From positions 1-46,641 of the forward strand of contig JAANXA010000032.1 of NCBI GenBank assembly GCA_018263505.1: a DNA stretch of 46,641 nt. The letters run 5' to 3'. The position numbers were made by a program, and so were the translations under genes. The stretch is from Candidatus Nitrosopumilus sp. GTDB lineage: Archaea; Thermoproteota; Nitrososphaeria; Nitrososphaerales; Nitrosopumilaceae. The notes beneath the pieces were generated by a model. That model did not search any database and had not been told where the DNA came from. It was given only the letters and a program-made list of their open reading frames with translations. Below, piece after piece: positions 16,288 through 25,412 of this stretch; the first letter of the stretch is position 1; every line of letters begins with the position of its first letter.

Positions 16288-17487
16288 ATGACTCAAAAAG
16301 GAATTCTCGCATTTTCAGGAGGATTGGATACATCAGTAGTTGTGAAATATTTACAAGATGAACATGACATGGATGTAATTACAGTCACCGTAGATGTTGG
16401 ACAATGTGATGACACTAAAAAAATTGCAGCAAAAGCAAAATCATTAGGAGTAAAAAAACATTATAACATAGATGCAAGAAAAGAATTTGTTAAAAATTAC
16501 ATTTTTCCATCAATTAAAGCAAATGCACTTTATCAAAAAAAATATTGTTTGGCAACAGCTCTTGCCAGACCACTGATTGCAGAAAAAGTATTAGAAGTTG
16601 CTAAAAAAGAAAAAGTAACAGCATTAGCACATGGGTGTTCAGGAAAAGGAAATGATCAAGTTCGTTTTGATATTACATTAAGAGCAGGTTCTGATTTACC
16701 AATAATCGCACCAATTCGAGATAAAAATTTAGACAGAGTTACCGAGTTAAAATTTGCAGAAAAACATGGAATCGAAATCGACTCTGTAGCAAAAAAATTC
16801 AGTATTGATCAAAATTTATGGGGACGTGCAATTGAAGGAGGAGTATTAGAAGATCCATACAATGAACCACCAGAAGATGCATTCATTTGGGTAAAGACAA
16901 AAGATTTACCAGATAAACCAACATATTTAGAAATAGAATTTCAAAAAGGAATTCCAATTAAAGTAGATGGGAAAACAATGGATCCTCAAAAATTAATTGA
17001 GTACATTAACAAAAAAGCAGGAAATGCAGGAGTTGGAATTGTTGATCATATTGAAGATAGAGTGGTTGGAATCAAATCTCGTGAAGTGTATGAAACACCA
17101 GCTGCAACATGTCTAATTGAAGCACATTCAGATTTAGAAAAAATGGTTCATACAAAACATGAAAACAAATTCAAATCCATCATAGATGATGAATGGGCAT
17201 ATTTAGTATATTCAGGACTTTGGCAGGATCCATTAAAAACAGATTTGGACGGATTTGTCGAAGCATCACAAAAACAAGTAACAGGAACAGTGAAACTCAA
17301 AATGTTCAAAGGAAGTCTAAGAGTAGTAGGAAGGAGATCAAAGAACTCATTGTACAGTCATGAAATTGCCACTTATGGAACAGAATCCACATTTGATCAA
17401 AGATTAGCAAAAGGTTTCGTGGAATTATGGGGAATTCAGTCAACAGAAGCTAATAAATTACAAAAGAAGAGGTTTTCAAAAACATGA
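16288..17487 (+). CDS. argG: argininosuccinate synthase
   Basis: The enzyme joins citrulline and aspartate with ATP to form argininosuccinate, the penultimate step of arginine synthesis. The PP-loop SGGLDTS is at residues 10-16, and the 399-residue length and RFDITLRAGSDL-type motifs match ArgG. Its TGA overlaps the ATG of lysW by four bases, making it the first gene of the arginine/lysine operon. This placement ties the first carrier/ligase pair to arginine. Confidence 0.95.
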   Translation: MTQKGILAFSGGLDTSVVVKYLQDEHDMDVITVTVDVGQCDDTKKIAAKAKSLGVKKHYNIDARKEFVKNYIFPSIKANALYQKKYCLATALARPLIAEKVLEVAKKEKVTALAHGCSGKGNDQVRFDITLRAGSDLPIIAPIRDKNLDRVTELKFAEKHGIEIDSVAKKFSIDQNLWGRAIEGGVLEDPYNEPPEDAFIWVKTKDLPDKPTYLEIEFQKGIPIKVDGKTMDPQKLIEYINKKAGNAGVGIVDHIEDRVVGIKSREVYETPAATCLIEAHSDLEKMVHTKHENKFKSIIDDEWAYLVYSGLWQDPLKTDLDGFVEASQKQVTGTVKLKMFKGSLRVVGRRSKNSLYSHEIATYGTESTFDQRLAKGFVELWGIQSTEANKLQKKRFSKT

Positions 17488-17651
17488 ACTGTCCAGAATG
17501 TGATGCAACTCTAAACATCCCAGACGATGCCTCTGTTGGAGAAATAGTCTCCTGTCCTGATTGTGGAGCAGACTTTGAAATATCAAAAAAAGATGGATCA
17601 AATATTGAGCTTAAACAAGCAGAAAGCGTAGGCGAAGATTGGGGAGAGTAA
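17484..17651 (+). CDS. lysW: amino-group carrier protein LysW (arginine-side copy)
   Basis: This 55-residue zinc protein has Cys3, Cys6, Cys24 and Cys27 in two CxxC pairs, an acidic body, and the terminal motif EDWGE. In LysW systems the side-chain carboxyl of the final Glu is joined to the amino group of glutamate or alpha-aminoadipate, protecting it during chain modification. ATG overlaps the argG stop, and the TAA overlaps the next ATG by one base (TAATG). A second copy is at 23275-23442. Confidence 0.95.
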   Translation: MNCPECDATLNIPDDASVGEIVSCPDCGADFEISKKDGSNIELKQAESVGEDWGE

Positions 17652-18508
17652 TGTCAAAAGTCTGTATTGTGTTTGACCGTTTGCGAACGGAAGAAAAGAT
17701 GCTTAAAAAAGAAGCATTAGATTTAGGACACAATGCATTGATGTTAGATGCAAAAATTACCCAAATTAACACAGATAGTAAAAAAGAAGATTTTGAACTA
17801 GGCGATGTTGTTCTAGAAAGATGTGTTAGTTATTTTAGAGGTCTTCATTTTACTTCTAGTTTAGAATTTTTAGATATTCCTGTCTTGAATAAATTTGAGG
17901 TTGCAAATATTTGTGGAAATAAGATGTTCATGACTTTACTTTTGAAAAAGAATAATATTCCAACTCCAAAAACATATTTTTCATTTTCAAGTGAAAGTGC
18001 AGCAGAAAATTTAGAAAAAGTTGGATTTCCACTAGTAATTAAACCAGTAATAGGTAGTTGGGGACGAGGAGTTATGCCAATTAAAGACAAAGATACAATG
18101 GAAGCAGTTTTTGAAGTTAGAGATATTACAGATAGTCCACATGATAGAATCTACTATTTACAAGAATTAATCAATAGACCTCCAAGAGATATCAGAGTTA
18201 TTACAGTTGGAGATGAGCCAATTGCTGCAATGTATAGAAAATCATCAGGAGGTTTTAAAACAAATATTGCATTAGGAGCAGATCCAGAAATTTGTGAGAT
18301 CACAAAAGAAATGGAGGATTTAGCAGTAAAAGCTTCCAAAGCCATGGGAGGAGGTATTTTAGGAGTTGACATAATGGAAGATGAAGAACATGGTTTAGTG
18401 GTTCACGAAGTCAACAATACTGTAGAATTCAAAGGATTGGCAAGAGTTGCAAAACGAAATATTCCAAAAGAAATGATAGAATTTGCTCTAAATTACGTTA
18501 GGAAATAA
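17651..18508 (+). CDS. argX: LysW-glutamate ligase (ArgX), RimK-type ATP-grasp
   Basis: An ATP-grasp ligase that attaches glutamate to the LysW C terminus, opening the arginine branch. The metal/ATP motif VHEVNNTVEFKG lies near residues 255-266, and a GGFKTN substrate loop near 200-205 differs from the HWKTN of the second copy. The adjacent argG and the GGFKTN/EFKGLARV features favour the ArgX role (family recollection, not tested). ATG 17651 is chosen; a TTG 12 bases upstream would run into the lysW end. 285 residues, normal length. Confidence 0.85.
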   Translation: MSKVCIVFDRLRTEEKMLKKEALDLGHNALMLDAKITQINTDSKKEDFELGDVVLERCVSYFRGLHFTSSLEFLDIPVLNKFEVANICGNKMFMTLLLKKNNIPTPKTYFSFSSESAAENLEKVGFPLVIKPVIGSWGRGVMPIKDKDTMEAVFEVRDITDSPHDRIYYLQELINRPPRDIRVITVGDEPIAAMYRKSSGGFKTNIALGADPEICEITKEMEDLAVKASKAMGGGILGVDIMEDEEHGLVVHEVNNTVEFKGLARVAKRNIPKEMIEFALNYVRK

Positions 18509-18536: not shown

Positions 18537-19583
18537 ATGAAAGTAGGTGTTGTAGGTGCATCAGGTTATGTAGGGGGAGAAACACTTCGTCTTCTTGTAA
18601 ATCATCCAGATGTTGAAATTTCAATGGTTACATCAAGACAACATGTAGGTGAATATCTTCATAGAGTACAACCTAGTTTGAAAGGTTTTACCGATCTAAC
18701 ATTTTCTGAGATGGATTATGATAAATTAACTGATAAATGTGATTTAGTTTTTACAGCAGTACCACATGGAACTGCAACAGAAATTGTAAAGGCATTGTAT
18801 GATAGAGGAATCAAAATTATTGATTTGAGCGCAGATTACAGATTACATAATCAAGAAGCATATGATAAGTGGTATGGATGGGAGCATCCACATCCAGATT
18901 ATTTGAAAAAATCAGTATTTGGAGTACCAGAATTACATAGAGAAGAGATTAAAAAATCACAACTGGTTTCTTGCCCAGGGTGTATGGCAGTAACATCAAT
19001 GTTAGCAATTGCGCCATTAATTAGAAATGATATAATTGATACAGACCACATTGTTGTTGATTCAAAGATTGGTTCATCAGGTGCAGGATCAGGTTCTGGA
19101 ACTGCACATGCAATGAGAGCTGGAGTTATCAGACCATACAAACCAGCAAAACACAGACACACTGGTGAAATTGAACAAGAGCTTAGTGAGATTGCTGGAA
19201 AGAAAATTAATGTTTCAATGAGTCCACATGCAGTCGATGTTGTTCGTGGAATTTTATGTACCAATCACACATTCATGAAAAAAGATATCGATGAAAAAGA
19301 GTTATGGAAATTATACAGACAAACTTATGGTGATGAGAAATTTGTGAGATTAATCAGAGATAAAAAAGGATTATACAAATTCCCTGATCCAAAATTCTTG
19401 GTTGGTTCAAACTTTTGTGACATTGGATTTGATTTAGATGAAGATAACAACAGATTGATTGCATTATCTGCATCAGATAATTTGATGAAAGGTGCAGCAG
19501 GTTCTGCTATTCAAAACATGAACGTAATGTGCGGTTTTGATGAAATGAACGGATTAAGATATACTCCATTGACTCCGGTTTAG
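18537..19583 (+). CDS. lysY: LysW-aminoadipate/glutamate semialdehyde dehydrogenase
   Basis: Homologue of ArgC: it reduces the acyl-phosphate on the LysW-bound amino acid to a semialdehyde with NADPH. The dinucleotide fold starts GVVGASGYVGGETLR (3-17). The catalytic cysteine is Cys149 in SCPGCMAV. The C-terminal part has HRHTGEIEQEL, as in ArgC. 348 residues is the usual length. There is one copy for two carrier systems in the window, so it is probably bifunctional for lysine and arginine. It is followed by lysZ after 2 bp. Confidence 0.92.
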   Translation: MKVGVVGASGYVGGETLRLLVNHPDVEISMVTSRQHVGEYLHRVQPSLKGFTDLTFSEMDYDKLTDKCDLVFTAVPHGTATEIVKALYDRGIKIIDLSADYRLHNQEAYDKWYGWEHPHPDYLKKSVFGVPELHREEIKKSQLVSCPGCMAVTSMLAIAPLIRNDIIDTDHIVVDSKIGSSGAGSGSGTAHAMRAGVIRPYKPAKHRHTGEIEQELSEIAGKKINVSMSPHAVDVVRGILCTNHTFMKKDIDEKELWKLYRQTYGDEKFVRLIRDKKGLYKFPDPKFLVGSNFCDIGFDLDEDNNRLIALSASDNLMKGAAGSAIQNMNVMCGFDEMNGLRYTPLTPV

Positions 19584-19585
19584 AA

Positions 19586-20389
19586 ATGATTACAATCAAG
19601 ATTGGTGGAAGTGTAGTAGATGATTTACATCCATCAACAATTTTAGATATTAAAAAAGTAGCAGAATCAGAAGGTGTTATTCTAGTACATGGAGGAGGAA
19701 AAGAAGTCACCAAAGTTTGTAAACAATTAGGTAAAGAACCAAAATTTGTAACATCACCAAGTGGAATTAAAAGTAGATACACCGACAAAGAAACTGCAGA
19801 AATTTTTACAATGGTAATGTCAGGTAGAATCAATAAAACAATTGTTCAAATGCTTCAAAAAAATGGCATCAATGCAATTGGACTTTCAGGAGTAGATGCC
19901 AAAGTAATTGAGGCAGATAGAAAAAAGAAACTACTCATAGTTAATGAAAAAGGAAGAAAACAAGCAATTGATGGTGGATATACTGGGAAAATCAAAGCAA
20001 TAAACTCAGAATTTATCAATTCTCTCTTAGAAAAAGGATTAACACCTGTTATCTCACCTATTGCAATCAGTGAAGAATCAGAATTTCTTAATGTAGATGG
20101 AGACAGAGCAGCAGCATATGTTGCAGGAAAAGTTGGAAGTGACAAAGTATTATTCATAACAAATGTTGATGGGCTTTTAATGGATGACAAAGTGGTTTCT
20201 AAACTCACACTTGCAGAAGCAAAAGAAATTAGACCAAAAATAGGTCCAGGAATGGAAAAGAAAATTTTAGCATCAACTGAAGCATTAGATATGGGAGTCA
20301 AAAAAGCATTAATTGCAAATGGTCAAAAAGAAAATCCAATTTCTTGTGCTATTGCACATGATAATTGTACGGTGATTGAACATGAGTGA
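19586..20389 (+). CDS. lysZ: LysW-aminoadipate/glutamate kinase
   Basis: An amino-acid kinase of the ArgB family (267 residues) phosphorylating the side-chain carboxyl of the LysW-bound substrate. IKIGGSVVDD at the N terminus, HGGGKEVTK at about 35-43, and NVDGLLMDD in the C-terminal half are the phosphate- and ATP-binding segments. ATG 19586 is 2 bp after the lysY stop. The 3' end overlaps the lysJ start by eight bases. It is presumably shared by both pathways. Confidence 0.92.
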   Translation: MITIKIGGSVVDDLHPSTILDIKKVAESEGVILVHGGGKEVTKVCKQLGKEPKFVTSPSGIKSRYTDKETAEIFTMVMSGRINKTIVQMLQKNGINAIGLSGVDAKVIEADRKKKLLIVNEKGRKQAIDGGYTGKIKAINSEFINSLLEKGLTPVISPIAISEESEFLNVDGDRAAAYVAGKVGSDKVLFITNVDGLLMDDKVVSKLTLAEAKEIRPKIGPGMEKKILASTEALDMGVKKALIANGQKENPISCAIAHDNCTVIEHE

Positions 20390-21557
20390 AGATCAATTTA
20401 TGGGAAATCTCTATCAGAGATTTCCAGTAACTGTTGAAAAAGGAGTAGGAGCTCATGTATGGGATACAGATGGGAAAGAATACATCGATTGTATGGGAGG
20501 ATATGGAGTTGCATTAGTTGGTCATCAAAATAAAAGAGTTAATGATGCAATAAAAAATCAAATTGATAAGATCATTACAGTACACAGTTCTCTTTACAAT
20601 AAAACAAGAGAGGAGTTTTTGAAAACATTAATTGGTTTAGCTCCAAAAGAACTAACACAAGTTCATCTAAACAATAGTGGAGCAGAAGCAATTGAAGCTG
20701 CAATGAAATTTGCAAGAAAGTTTACAGGTAAGAAAGGGATGGTGGCAATGAAAGGATCATATCATGGAAAATCATTTGGATCTTTATCACTAACATTTAA
20801 TCCAAAATATAGAAAATCATTTGCACCACTTGTGGAAAAAGTTTCTTTTGCATCATATGGAGATATGGAATCATTACGTTCAGTTGTAGATGAAGATACA
20901 GCATTTATCATTTTAGAACCAATTCAAGGAGAAAGTGGAATCATTGTTGCACCAGATGGATTCTTACAAGAAGTTAGAAAGTTATGTGATGAGAAAGGAA
21001 TTCTGTTAATCTTTGACGAAATTCAAGCAGGATTAGGTAGAACAGGGCGATTATGGGCATGTGATCATTGGAATACTGCACCAGATATTTTGTGTCTTGC
21101 AAAAGGTATTGCAGGAGGAGTTCCAATGGGAGCTACACTTGTTCGTCCAGATATTTTAGCATCAATTAGTAAAGGGGAGCATTCATCCACATTTGGAGGA
21201 AATCCAATATCTTGTGCAGCAGGAACTGCAGCACTCAAAGCGTTAACAGAAGATGGATTAATTGAAAATTCAGAAAAAATGGGAAAAATGTTCAAAGCAG
21301 GATTGGAAAAACTAAAAGAGAAACATTCCATCATCAGAGAAATTCGTGGAAAAGGTCTCATGATCGGTATTGAGATGAAATTTGAAGTGAGAGATATCTT
21401 AATGGGGTTAATTAGAGAAGGTGTTTTGATGCTATATTCTGGAAGAAACATTTTAAGAATACTTCCTCCACTAGTAATTTCTGAAGAAGACGTAACAAAA
21501 GTTTTACATGCTTTAGATATCATACTAACTGAAGAGGAAGTAAAAAGAAATGCATAA
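20382..21557 (+). CDS. lysJ: LysW-semialdehyde aminotransferase
   Basis: A class III PLP aminotransferase of the ArgD family, 391 residues. The PLP lysine is Lys241 in LCLAKGIAGG, and the cofactor Asp is in IFDEIQAGLGRTG (about 210-222). It converts the LysW-bound semialdehyde to the amine (LysW-lysine or LysW-ornithine) with glutamate. ATG 20382 is preferred over an in-frame TTG six bases upstream. It overlaps lysZ before and lysM after, each by eight bases. Confidence 0.92.
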   Translation: MSEDQFMGNLYQRFPVTVEKGVGAHVWDTDGKEYIDCMGGYGVALVGHQNKRVNDAIKNQIDKIITVHSSLYNKTREEFLKTLIGLAPKELTQVHLNNSGAEAIEAAMKFARKFTGKKGMVAMKGSYHGKSFGSLSLTFNPKYRKSFAPLVEKVSFASYGDMESLRSVVDEDTAFIILEPIQGESGIIVAPDGFLQEVRKLCDEKGILLIFDEIQAGLGRTGRLWACDHWNTAPDILCLAKGIAGGVPMGATLVRPDILASISKGEHSSTFGGNPISCAAGTAALKALTEDGLIENSEKMGKMFKAGLEKLKEKHSIIREIRGKGLMIGIEMKFEVRDILMGLIREGVLMLYSGRNILRILPPLVISEEDVTKVLHALDIILTEEEVKRNA

Positions 21558-21969
21558 GGACAATACAGATCAAAAAATTATAGAATATCTAAAAGAAAAT
21601 TCTAGAGAATCATTTGTAGATATTGGAAAAAAACTAAAACTTTCTGAATCAGCAATAAGACGACGAGTAAAAAATTTAGTTGGAAGTGGAACAATCAAAA
21701 AATTCACTTTAGAAATGGGTGAAGAAAACAATACAAGTGCAATTGTTTTAGTTTCAGTAGATTCTGCAACAGATACATCAAAAGTTTCACTAAAACTTGC
21801 AAAATTAAAAGGTGTGAAAACAGTATACGAGATAACAGGACAATATGACATCACCACAATAATTAGTGCACCAAACATTGCAGATATCAATAATAGTATT
21901 GATGCATTAAGAAAAATTACAGGAGTTGTTGATACAAACACTGTAATCATTTTAAGAAAAATAATCTAA
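21550..21969 (+). CDS. lysM: Lrp/AsnC-family regulator, LysM-like
   Basis: 139 residues: an N-terminal winged helix-turn-helix (about 5-52, SESAIRRRVKNL recognition helix) and a C-terminal RAM ligand-binding domain (about 65-139). It overlaps the end of lysJ by eight bases and closes the operon. In Sulfolobus the Lrp-type LysM regulates the lysW cluster in response to lysine; the same role is inferred from position. It is full-length, unlike the two RAM-only proteins at 44675 and 45600. Confidence 0.88.
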   Translation: MHKDNTDQKIIEYLKENSRESFVDIGKKLKLSESAIRRRVKNLVGSGTIKKFTLEMGEENNTSAIVLVSVDSATDTSKVSLKLAKLKGVKTVYEITGQYDITTIISAPNIADINNSIDALRKITGVVDTNTVIILRKII

Positions 21970-22085: not shown

Positions 22086-23252
22086 ATGAAGGATCCGAAT
22101 CACTATGCAAATGAGTATAACGCATATGACAAAAACCCAAAAAAAATTAGGGTGTTAGATAGTACACTTAGAGAAGGAGAGCAGCATCCAGGTGTATCAT
22201 TTACAAACAAACAAAGAATTCAGATTGCATGGATGTTGGATTACTTTGGTGTAGATCAAATTGAAATTTCACCAGTAGTATCAAATGACCATAAAGAAGC
22301 AACAAAGACAATCATCAAACAAGGATTAAAGGCAGATATTGTTTCTCATGGACGTGCCCTTAAACAAGACATAGATATTTCATTAGAATGTGATGCAAAA
22401 TGGTGTGCAGCATATTTAGGAGTATCAGATGTTCATCTCAAAGACAAGTTACGTATTTCAAGAGAAGAAGCTCTTGAGAGAGCAGTAGAAACTGTAGAGT
22501 ATGCAAAGTCACATGGATTAAAAATTAGATTTACAGTTGAAGATGGAAGCAGAGCAGAACCAGAATTCCTTCTCAAGGTTTGTAAAGCAATCGAAGAAGC
22601 AGGAGTGGACAGAATTAGTCTTCCAGATACAGTTGGGATTATGCGACCAATTGGAATGTATAATTTTGTAAAAAAAGTTAGTAATATTATTGATGTTCCA
22701 TTAGATGCACATGTTCACAATGATATTGGATTTGCAGTTGCAAATGCATTTTCAGCATGTGAAGCAGGAGTTGATCAAATTCATACAACCATTGATGGGA
22801 TTGGTGAGAGAACAGGAATTCCATCACTTGCAGAAGTTGCAGTGGCATTAACATATTTGTACAAATCACCAAATGATTTTAGATTAGATATGTTACAAGA
22901 TCTTTCTAGATTAATTGAAGAATATACAATAATCAAACCATATGACTCAAAACCGATTGTAGGATCTTCAGCATACAAACACAAAGCAGGTACACACCTT
23001 GCAGCAATTCTCAAAAATCCTGCAGCATATGAGCCAATTCCACCAAGAGAAGTAGGAAATAGAAGGAAAATAGTATTTGGAGAATTGGCAGGAAAAACAG
23101 GTGCAGGGTACTTGATGTCACTATTAGGCCTCGAAAAGAATGAAGAAAGTGCAAAGGCAGTAGCAGCAGGGCTAAAAAATCTAAGAATGGGAGATCTTAT
23201 AGAAATCCCACTAGAAGATAGGCTAGAAAAAAAGATAATTAATGATAAATAA
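22086..23252 (+). CDS. homocitrate synthase (LeuA-like family)
   Basis: The 388-residue HMGL-like TIM barrel enzyme has the signature DSTLREGEQHPG (25-36) and the metal-binding HVHND motif (about 210-214). The lysine context (followed by lysW, lysX and lysK) indicates condensation of acetyl-CoA with 2-oxoglutarate to homocitrate, the first step of the aminoadipate route. Isopropylmalate or citramalate synthase would be alternatives, but the long C-terminal LeuA regulatory domain is absent. ATG 22086 (MKDPNHYANEY) fits the TATA spacing; earlier starts add non-conserved residues. Confidence 0.85.
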   Translation: MKDPNHYANEYNAYDKNPKKIRVLDSTLREGEQHPGVSFTNKQRIQIAWMLDYFGVDQIEISPVVSNDHKEATKTIIKQGLKADIVSHGRALKQDIDISLECDAKWCAAYLGVSDVHLKDKLRISREEALERAVETVEYAKSHGLKIRFTVEDGSRAEPEFLLKVCKAIEEAGVDRISLPDTVGIMRPIGMYNFVKKVSNIIDVPLDAHVHNDIGFAVANAFSACEAGVDQIHTTIDGIGERTGIPSLAEVAVALTYLYKSPNDFRLDMLQDLSRLIEEYTIIKPYDSKPIVGSSAYKHKAGTHLAAILKNPAAYEPIPPREVGNRRKIVFGELAGKTGAGYLMSLLGLEKNEESAKAVAAGLKNLRMGDLIEIPLEDRLEKKIINDK

Positions 23253-23274: not shown

Positions 23275-23442
23275 ATGGCAAAATGTGATGAATGTGATGC
23301 AACTATTTCAATTCCAAGTGATGCACTTGAAGGTGAAATTGTGACATGTCCAGAATGTGGTGCAAGTTTTGAATTAGCAAAAGGTTCAGACGGTTTCGAT
23401 CTAAAGCCTGCCCAAACGGTTGGCGAGGATTGGGGACAGTGA
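23275..23442 (+). CDS. lysW: second amino-group carrier protein LysW, ends in Gln
   Basis: 55 residues, clearly paralogous to the copy at 17484: Cys4, Cys7, Cys25 and Cys28 in two CxxC pairs and the conserved terminal block VGEDWG. The last codon is CAG, so the protein ends EDWGQ instead of EDWGE. The missing Glu is the residue whose side chain is conjugated to the amino acid in characterised LysW systems. The frame is otherwise intact and the stop overlaps the lysX GTG start by three bases, as expected for a working operon. It is predicted to serve lysine, from the neighbours homocitrate synthase and lysX. Confidence 0.92.
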   Translation: MAKCDECDATISIPSDALEGEIVTCPECGASFELAKGSDGFDLKPAQTVGEDWGQ

Positions 23443-24281
23443 ATCCTGACGTTACAATTCTTTACGATACCATACGTTGGGAAGAAAAGGCACTGCTAGA
23501 AGCAGGTAAAAAAAAGAATATCAACATACAGATGGTTGATTGTAAAAAATTAGCATTAAATCTAGAAAAAAAACCTGATGAATATGGTGCTGTAATTCAA
23601 AGATGTGTAAGTTATTACAGAAATTTACATTCAACTGCAGCTCTTGAAGGATTAGGAGTCAAAGTTATCAATTGTTTGAATACAGGAGTGTTTGCAGGAA
23701 ATAAATTATTTACACACATGTTGTTAAAAAAGTATAATGTACCAACACCTGATGCAACTGTTGCTTTTTCAAAAGATGCAGCATTAGAAGCATTACAAAC
23801 AGAAGGGTTTCCAAAAGTGATTAAACCAACAGTTGGTAGTTGGGGAAGATTAATTTCAAAATTAAACGATAAAGATGCAGCTGAAGGGATTATTGAAAGT
23901 AGAGAAAGCATGTATCCAATTTATCAAATTCATTATCTTGAAGAATTTGTAAAAAGACCACCAAGAGACATTAGAGCAATTATGGTAGGAGACAAAATTG
24001 TTGCAGCAATTTATAGAATTTCTAAACATTGGAAAACAAACATGGCACTTGGAGGAACAGCAGAACAATGTGAAGTTACTTCAGAGATGGAAGAGATGTG
24101 TATTAAAGCAAAAAATGCAGTTCAAGGGGATATTGTAGGGGTAGATTTGATGGAGAGTGATGAGAAAGGACTTGTAGTACATGAAGTTAACAATACAACA
24201 GAATACAAAAATACAGTTAGAGTGTGTGATGTAGATATTCCTTCACTTATGCTTGATTATGCATTAAAGGTAGACAAGTAA
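23439..24281 (+). CDS. lysX: LysW-alpha-aminoadipate ligase (LysX), RimK-type ATP-grasp
   Basis: 280 residues, a paralogue of argX at 17651. The substrate loop KHWKTNMALGG and the C-terminal EYKNTVRVCDVDIP resemble the Thermus LysX pattern (HWxTN, EFKN...GVDIP, recalled), favouring aminoadipate. The VHEVNNT metal/ATP motif is present near residue 250. GTG 23439 is chosen: it overlaps the lysW stop and matches the start of the paralogue; a TTG nine bases upstream is an alternative. Confidence 0.87.
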   Translation: MNPDVTILYDTIRWEEKALLEAGKKKNINIQMVDCKKLALNLEKKPDEYGAVIQRCVSYYRNLHSTAALEGLGVKVINCLNTGVFAGNKLFTHMLLKKYNVPTPDATVAFSKDAALEALQTEGFPKVIKPTVGSWGRLISKLNDKDAAEGIIESRESMYPIYQIHYLEEFVKRPPRDIRAIMVGDKIVAAIYRISKHWKTNMALGGTAEQCEVTSEMEEMCIKAKNAVQGDIVGVDLMESDEKGLVVHEVNNTTEYKNTVRVCDVDIPSLMLDYALKVDK

Positions 24282-24284
24282 GAA

Positions 24285-25412
24285 TTGGACACACATTTTA
24301 CAGTAACTCCAAAATTTGCAACTAAAATGTTGGAAAAAGCACTAAAGTTGTACACACCATCATTAAGTGAAAAACCAATGGCCGAATTTTTAGCTGATAA
24401 ATGTGATGATTTAGGATTTGAAGATATTCAAATTGATGAAGTTGGAAATATGATTGCAAGAAAAGGTTCAGGATCACCTACAATCATGCTATGTGGTCAC
24501 ATGGATGTAGTTCCAGGAAAAGTCAAAGTGAGAAGAGAGGGAGATTCACTATATGGCAGAGGTGCGTCAGATGCAAAAGCACCACTAATGGCAATGTTAT
24601 TTGCTGCAGCGTCAATTCAAAATAATAATGGAACAATAATTTTTGTCGGTGCAGTAGATGAAGAAGGAAACGCAATAGGAATTAAAAATATTGTAAAAAA
24701 TGAATGGGGTGTAGATTATGCAGTTTTTGGAGAACCAAGTGGAATCAAACAAGTCACAATTGCATACAAAGGAAGATTGGCAATTAATCTAAAAATTAGT
24801 GTAGAAGATAGTTCACATGCAAGTGCACCATGGCTTTCAAAAAATGCAATTCAAGAATCAGCTATTTTTGCAAGTGAACTTAAAGAGAAATTAGAAAAAG
24901 GACAAGAAGATAGAACCAAAGGAATGCTTCTCACTGTAACAATGACTGAAATTAAAGGGGGAACAAGTCACAATGTTACCCCAAAGGAATGTGAAACAAC
25001 TTTTGACATTAGAATTCCAGTAGATATGAATTGTAAATCTATTGAACAAAAAATTGCAGTACTGGTAAAAGAAATTTCTAAAAAGAGACAGGTGGATGCA
25101 TTTTATTCAATTCTTGATGAAACAGAGCCATTTGAGGCAGCACATAATTCTCCACTAGTCAGAGCATTTACTCTGGGAGTAATGGAAGCTGAGAAATCAA
25201 GACCCACATTAATCAGAAAAACAGGAACTGGAGACATGAATGTTTTAGGAAATCAATGGAGTATACCAGTAGTTACTTATGGTCCAGGAGATCCACATGA
25301 AGCCCACACAATTGACGAAAAAGTATCAATTGATGAGTATTTGAGAGGCATTGAAATTCTCAAAAAAACATTACAGCATTTAAAAAGACTTCATGATAAA
25401 AAAATGCAATAA
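24285..25412 (+). CDS. lysK: LysW-lysine/ornithine hydrolase (M20 peptidase)
   Basis: 375-residue metallo-amidohydrolase that releases lysine or ornithine from LysW. M20 metal ligands and catalytic residues: His72 and Asp74 (CGHMDVV), Asp97 (GASDAKAP), and Glu126/Glu127 (DEEG). The start is TTG at 24285, 3 bp after the lysX stop, and the stop overlaps the dph5 ATG (TAATG). Being single-copy, it probably serves both pathways. The adjacent lysX and lysW exclude an unrelated dipeptidase role with good confidence. Confidence 0.9.
   Translation: MDTHFTVTPKFATKMLEKALKLYTPSLSEKPMAEFLADKCDDLGFEDIQIDEVGNMIARKGSGSPTIMLCGHMDVVPGKVKVRREGDSLYGRGASDAKAPLMAMLFAAASIQNNNGTIIFVGAVDEEGNAIGIKNIVKNEWGVDYAVFGEPSGIKQVTIAYKGRLAINLKISVEDSSHASAPWLSKNAIQESAIFASELKEKLEKGQEDRTKGMLLTVTMTEIKGGTSHNVTPKECETTFDIRIPVDMNCKSIEQKIAVLVKEISKKRQVDAFYSILDETEPFEAAHNSPLVRAFTLGVMEAEKSRPTLIRKTGTGDMNVLGNQWSIPVVTYGPGDPHEAHTIDEKVSIDEYLRGIEILKKTLQHLKRLHDKKMQ

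Follow-up and report, generated by a model that had tools for sequence, protein, structure and literature searches.

The closest described systems are those in which a small carrier protein, LysW or ArgW, is loaded by a dedicated ligase, LysX or ArgX, during the synthesis of lysine and arginine. In the characterised systems the carrier ends in Glu, the substrate is attached through its amino group to the gamma-carboxyl of this residue, and the GSWGR motif of the ligase is said to recognise the carrier tail (PMC10433800). The alpha-aminoadipate carrier of Thermus thermophilus is a Zn-ribbon protein with an EDWG end that works with a RimK-like ligase, its last residue is Glu54 and attachment to the gamma-carboxyl has been reported. 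In Sulfolobus a LysW is found together with LysX and ArgX (3vpb/3vpc), one carrier being used for lysine and arginine with one LysZ/Y/J/K set. The ArgW/ArgX pair of Natrinema gari J7-2 belongs to the same carrier and ligase families, has the EDWG and GSWGR motifs, and replacing the last Glu of the carrier (E54A) led to arginine auxotrophy (PMC10433800). The carriers in the structures 3vpb, 3wwl and 5k2m end in Glu too. The EDWGQ end described here is not mentioned in the open-access text that we searched.

We have analyzed a stretch of 46,641 nucleotides from a Candidatus Nitrosopumilus sp. (the window) that contains two LysW genes, the only ones in the genome. The gene on the lysine side (23275-23442, + strand) codes for a protein of 55 amino acids, MAKCDECDATISIPSDALEGEIVTCPECGASFELAKGSDGFDLKPAQTVGEDWGQ*, that matched the carrier profiles NF041070 (88.2 bits, cut-off 75) and Zn_ribbon_LysW PF21344 (46.8 bits, cut-off 27). 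It has the EDWG C-terminal stem of the LysW/ArgW carriers and stands beside a LysX/ArgX ligase and the conversion enzymes, so that the Zn ribbon, the EDWG end, the RimK-like ligase and the pathway logic are those of Thermus. However, where one would expect the Glu that receives the substrate on its gamma-carboxyl, the final codon is CAG (Gln55, 23437-23439, + strand), followed by the stop TGA (23440-23442). Judged by sequence and context, this gene is a LysW homologue that deviates in its encoded terminal residue, and the Gln that is natural here occupies the end at which Natrinema ArgW has its essential Glu. The second carrier, on the arginine side (17484-17651, + strand; NF041070 92.6 bits), is adjacent to argG and ends EDWGE, whereas the one adjacent to lysX ends EDWGQ. 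Reading and translating the window confirmed what the original prediction had said about these two ends.

Both carriers are found in one cluster on the + strand. The Gln-ending gene is followed by a lysX-type ATP-grasp ligase of 280 amino acids (23439-24281; TIGR02144 323 bits, cut-off 275.6; RimK and LysX_preATP_grasp) whose relatives in the PDB are 3vpd, 1uc8, 5k2m and 3vpb. Its GTG start overlaps lysW, the first base at 23439 being the G of the CAG codon. Further downstream, a lysK-type M20 hydrolase (24285-25412; TIGR01902 275 bits, cut-off 163.1; Peptidase_M20) is predicted to free the product from the carrier. Upstream of lysW there is a homocitrate synthase-like gene (22086-23252) for which the name is less certain, with a LysS_fung_arch score of 381 bits that falls under the equivalog cut-off of 413.55 and matches to isopropylmalate synthase models as well; its position beside lysW and lysX is conserved. 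Next to it are a LysM-type Lrp regulator (21550-21969; NF040947 190.6 bits, cut-off 180), a lysJ/argD aminotransferase (20376-21557; TIGR00707 430.6 bits, cut-off 410), a lysZ/argB kinase (19586-20389; NF010662, [LysW]-aminoadipate/[LysW]-glutamate kinase, 308 bits, cut-off 194) and a lysY/argC reductase (18537-19583; TIGR01850 417 bits, cut-off 233.6). The enzymes located between the two carriers are single-copy in the cluster and therefore presumably serve both. Beside the Glu carrier stands an argX-type ligase (17654-18508; TIGR02144 293 bits, RimK family) that the ligase tree places in the argX clade, and on its other side argG (16288-17487), a name taken from the original prediction, in a conserved gene order. 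The cluster thus brings together the homocitrate synthase-like gene, lysW, lysX, lysY, lysZ, lysJ and lysK. The ligases of the window are of the RimK-like ATP-grasp type and have the GSWGR motif, and their predicted function is to load aminoadipate (LysX) or glutamate (ArgX) on the carrier. In column 204 of the ligase alignment the ArgX of the Nitrosopumilaceae, that of the window included, reads ALGA, in contrast to the ARGG of many other ArgX. This change from Arg to Leu tracks lineage and not the last residue of the carrier.

We have scanned 250 genomes of the same family, the Nitrosopumilaceae. With a C-terminal pattern, two carriers were found in most of them, typically about 5.8 kb apart when on one contig, and among the matches listed the argG-side carrier was almost always Glu-ending and the lysX-side carrier Gln-ending. 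A scan for the Gln end only found it in 219 of the 250 genomes, in 126 of the 131 of high quality and in all 22 genera. Most of the family genomes without a Gln-ending match had no second match of any kind either. Five genomes (G114, G147, G148, G161 and G169) had two carriers and none with Gln; we read their genes and found Glu carriers standing before lysX, so natural reversions exist. In 79 lysW genes of the window's own clade the first base of the last codon was C in 76 and G in three, and the third base of the preceding codon varied. Over the end of the gene (23425-23439 in the window) there was nearly no synonymous change in these 79 genes, as would be expected if the GAGG at 23425-23428 doubles as the ribosome-binding site of lysX. 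Such a constraint on the DNA, acting on the upstream region of lysX, may explain part of the steady Gln, although not all of it.

In another family of the same order (f3, Nitrososphaeraceae-like) we found genomes with Gln on both carriers, some with a Gln-ending carrier for arginine and a Glu-ending one for lysine, and others with the opposite arrangement; many Nitrososphaeraceae-like genomes have a Gln-ending arginine-side carrier as well. The gene order was identical in Gln/Gln, Gln/Glu, Glu/Gln and Glu/Glu genomes. One genus (g24) is almost certainly Nitrosocosmicus, a genus that includes pure cultures. Here argX is kept and the carrier between argG and argX is missing (G276, G281, G284 and eight further genomes; loci L153, L154, L156, L157 and L158). 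A profile search found a single LysW in the whole genome, Gln-ending, in 11 of 11 cases, among them three single-contig genomes of 2.84, 2.99 and 3.43 Mb, and the five clusters that we read all had argX, lysX and the common enzymes. The other EDWGQ-like match in G276 (C1:1952672) is not a LysW. Since the arginine-side lysW has been lost with argX retained, one carrier must serve two ligases. Sulfolobus also has one carrier and two ligases, but there the carrier ends in Glu and here in Gln. The classical by-pass of the carrier was not seen in the genomes tested: there was no ArgJ and no convincing match to DapB, the weak ones lying in Rossmann stretches of larger, other proteins (open frames with 291-406 amino acids, one of them the lysY at 18537 itself). 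For N. arcticus, a Nitrosocosmicus in pure culture, the listed medium has no amino acids and contains salts, ammonium, bicarbonate, pyruvate and trace elements (PMC13006922). With a sole Gln carrier, no ArgJ, no convincing DapB and growth without listed amino acids, the Gln carrier must serve both pathways in this genus, barring an unknown route.

Scanning 397 genomes of the phylum, we detected Gln ends in further families outside the class. Reading of the genes confirmed a Gln-ending LysW in four of them (f28, f33, f49 and f52), mostly as the sole LysW and adjoining lysX; sole Gln-ending carriers were present in genomes of f28, f33 and f49. Even within genera both ends are found, some species of g105 having Glu and some Gln, and g120 having one of each. 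Other arrangements were also seen in the phylum. In G388 (L236) a LysW-like carrier ending VEDYGE lies beside argG with no ligase directly downstream within 3 kb. The genus g21 (L269, L270 and L272; G246, G245 and G244) has a second carrier, Gln-ending in two genomes and Glu-ending in one, with no ligase in the fetched flank, and in family f27 (L213, L214 and L250; G407 and G386) a carrier without adjoining ligase is located between argG and a lysZ-type kinase. The EDWGQ-like match at C35:44093 of G407 did not score as a LysW in the profile search. Outside the phylum the comparison covers the solved and published carriers and four plasmid-borne bacterial ones (Deinococcus, Pseudalkalibacillus and two Streptomyces), these four all Glu-ending. 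The one on the Pseudalkalibacillus plasmid (L277, 1489-1662) ends ESWGE and lies with two DegT/DnrJ aminotransferases and a ligase of the RimK type in what may be a carrier-based cluster for a secondary metabolite.

We have compared the ligases that stand beside Glu and Gln carriers. On a tree of 122 ligases the last residue of the carrier changes at least 16 times, an approximate figure, this being a quick tree with many open forks. Over 11 sister pairs, no ligase column shifted in one direction with Glu or Gln beyond the usual variable ones. The columns conserved in all ligases, GSWGR included, were identical beside both types of carrier. Two LysX from Nitrosopumilus, one with a Glu partner and the other with a Gln partner, are 94.6% identical, and none of their 16 differences falls in a conserved column. 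The lysX alignment gave no good column following the Glu/Gln state. The best state-tracking candidates in argX (columns 11, 140 and 150) turned out to be clade markers: in the Nitrososphaeraceae-like clade the only ligase with a Glu carrier (L172) shows the Gln-type letters, and in the other clade the only one with a Gln carrier (L020) shows the Glu-type ones. The last residue itself is strictly constrained. Among 328 complete carriers from the fetched loci, a partly redundant set in which the same genomes can occur twice, it was Gln in 177, Glu in 151 and nothing else (the one odd-ending count, L273, is a gene cut by the contig end and was excluded). The Gln is coded by CAA or CAG, and TAA, TAG and TGA all occur as stops after it, which places the selection at the level of the amino acid. 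The three different stops in use rule out a recoded last codon or a product of read-through. A constraint on the DNA only is ruled out as well, by the use of both Gln codons and by Glu revertants with GAGTGA that keep the overlapping GTG. Gln is therefore a real and recurrent alternative to Glu as the last LysW residue in this phylum, sole carriers included.

A Gln has no gamma-carboxyl, and as it is found also on sole carriers, the textbook attachment step cannot work exactly as described. The puzzle over how a Gln-ending carrier is charged, raised in the original prediction, is a real one. Biochemistry must decide, but the reading that we favour, with a confidence that falls slightly short of even, is that the substrate is still attached at the gamma-carbon of the last residue and that the amide is lost once, after which the carrier cycles normally. 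In an unchanged pocket the gamma-carbon of Gln should take the place that the gamma-carboxyl of Glu has, and we therefore think that the amide is replaced or hydrolysed there. Each protein molecule would need this step a single time: the amide would be hydrolysed or exchanged for the substrate's amino group, most probably within the LysX or ArgX that is bound to the carrier. Hydrolysis of the finished product off the gamma-position by LysK would leave a Glu, so that the Gln would need handling only once in the life of a carrier. From the second round onward the carrier would be of the normal EDWGE type with ATP-dependent charging, and the Gln would be a pro-form of the active residue. This would explain the swap of Glu and Gln without change in the ligase, the strict choice between the two, and the handling of both carriers in one cell by a single LysZ/LysY/LysJ/LysK set. 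Against the pro-form stand three points: we found no biochemical evidence for amide exchange or deamidation, there is no deamidase gene in the cluster, and a simple conversion of Gln into Glu predicts free drift, whereas the split in the window's own family (nearly always Gln for lysine and Glu for arginine) asks for a selective difference. Glutamine synthetase, in its gamma-glutamyltransferase reaction, exchanges the amide of Gln for another amine in the presence of ADP and phosphate or arsenate. Its fold is unrelated, and it is put forward only as a chemical precedent for an amide exchange by LysX. That LysX charges the Gln carrier directly, either by such an ATP-sparing exchange in which ammonia leaves or by loading of the alpha-carboxyl, seems to us an evenly balanced proposition.

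The serious rival to the pro-form, which we consider possible although with somewhat less confidence, is that the substrate is held by an ordinary peptide bond at the alpha-carboxyl of the terminal Gln (or Glu), which the LysX and ArgX of these lineages would activate, the side chain of Glu or Gln being only a recognition element. The alpha-carboxyl is the sole carboxyl that a terminal Gln has, and Glu and Gln would be interchangeable without change in the ligase, as is seen. Moreover, LysX is one of the RimK-like ATP-grasp ligases, and several of these owe their names to the addition of glutamate to an alpha-carboxyl; RimK, MptN and CofF are related to it in sequence and make such an addition feasible in the family, but they have other substrates and are a precedent for this explanation only. 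Yet use of the gamma-carboxyl has been reported for the characterised relatives, Sulfolobus included (PMC10433800), and ligases that have not changed would need to act on the gamma-carboxyl of Glu in one species and on the alpha-carboxyl of Gln in its sister, or else on the alpha-carboxyl in all. Where a cell has a Glu carrier as well as a Gln carrier, one LysZ/Y/J/K set would need to accept two geometries, and a side chain outside the chemistry should vary more than between Glu and Gln. A separate deamidase that turns the Gln into Glu after translation, before any charging, would make the two ends equivalent for LysX and the common enzymes; we regard it as unlikely, since the conserved cluster has no candidate gene, the enzyme must exist in every lineage that gained Gln independently, and there would be no reason to keep the Gln.

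The two remaining options of the original prediction have fallen. An arrangement in which the Gln carrier takes no part in charging and both pathways rely on the Glu carrier would suit the window's genome, which has one Glu carrier, and Sulfolobus, which has one LysW for both (PMC10433800). The genomes with two Gln carriers or with a sole Gln carrier, single-contig assemblies included, refute it for the lineage as a whole, and the culture from the presumed genus of g24, grown in a medium listed without amino acids, speaks against it too (PMC13006922); its probability is very low. Lower still, to the point of being negligible, is that of a sequencing error, an assembly error or a private mutation of GAG to CAG. 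The two codons differ by one base, but the same CAG is found in the orthologous gene of hundreds of independently assembled genomes. Comparison of the last codon in relatives had been proposed as the check, with GAG in all of them pointing to an artefact, and nearly all close relatives have CAG. The prediction thus stands for the puzzle itself, and loses two of its four explanations. The Nitrosopumilaceae steadily assign Glu to arginine and Gln to lysine, which hints at an extra advantage that neither gamma nor alpha attachment explains.

The terminal Glu has been treated as the defining catalytic residue of the amino-group carriers, and nature has swapped in Gln many times, also in organisms that have no other LysW. 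Either the accepted loading chemistry has to be revised, or the Gln end reveals a maturation step that takes place one time. Pathway calls demanding EDWGE would miss most lysine carriers of the ammonia-oxidising archaea. The charging question is directly testable, as strains of Nitrososphaera and Nitrosocosmicus are in culture. If true, amide exchange or alpha loading would be a way of charging amino-group carriers that is so far undocumented, in one of the most abundant groups of archaea.
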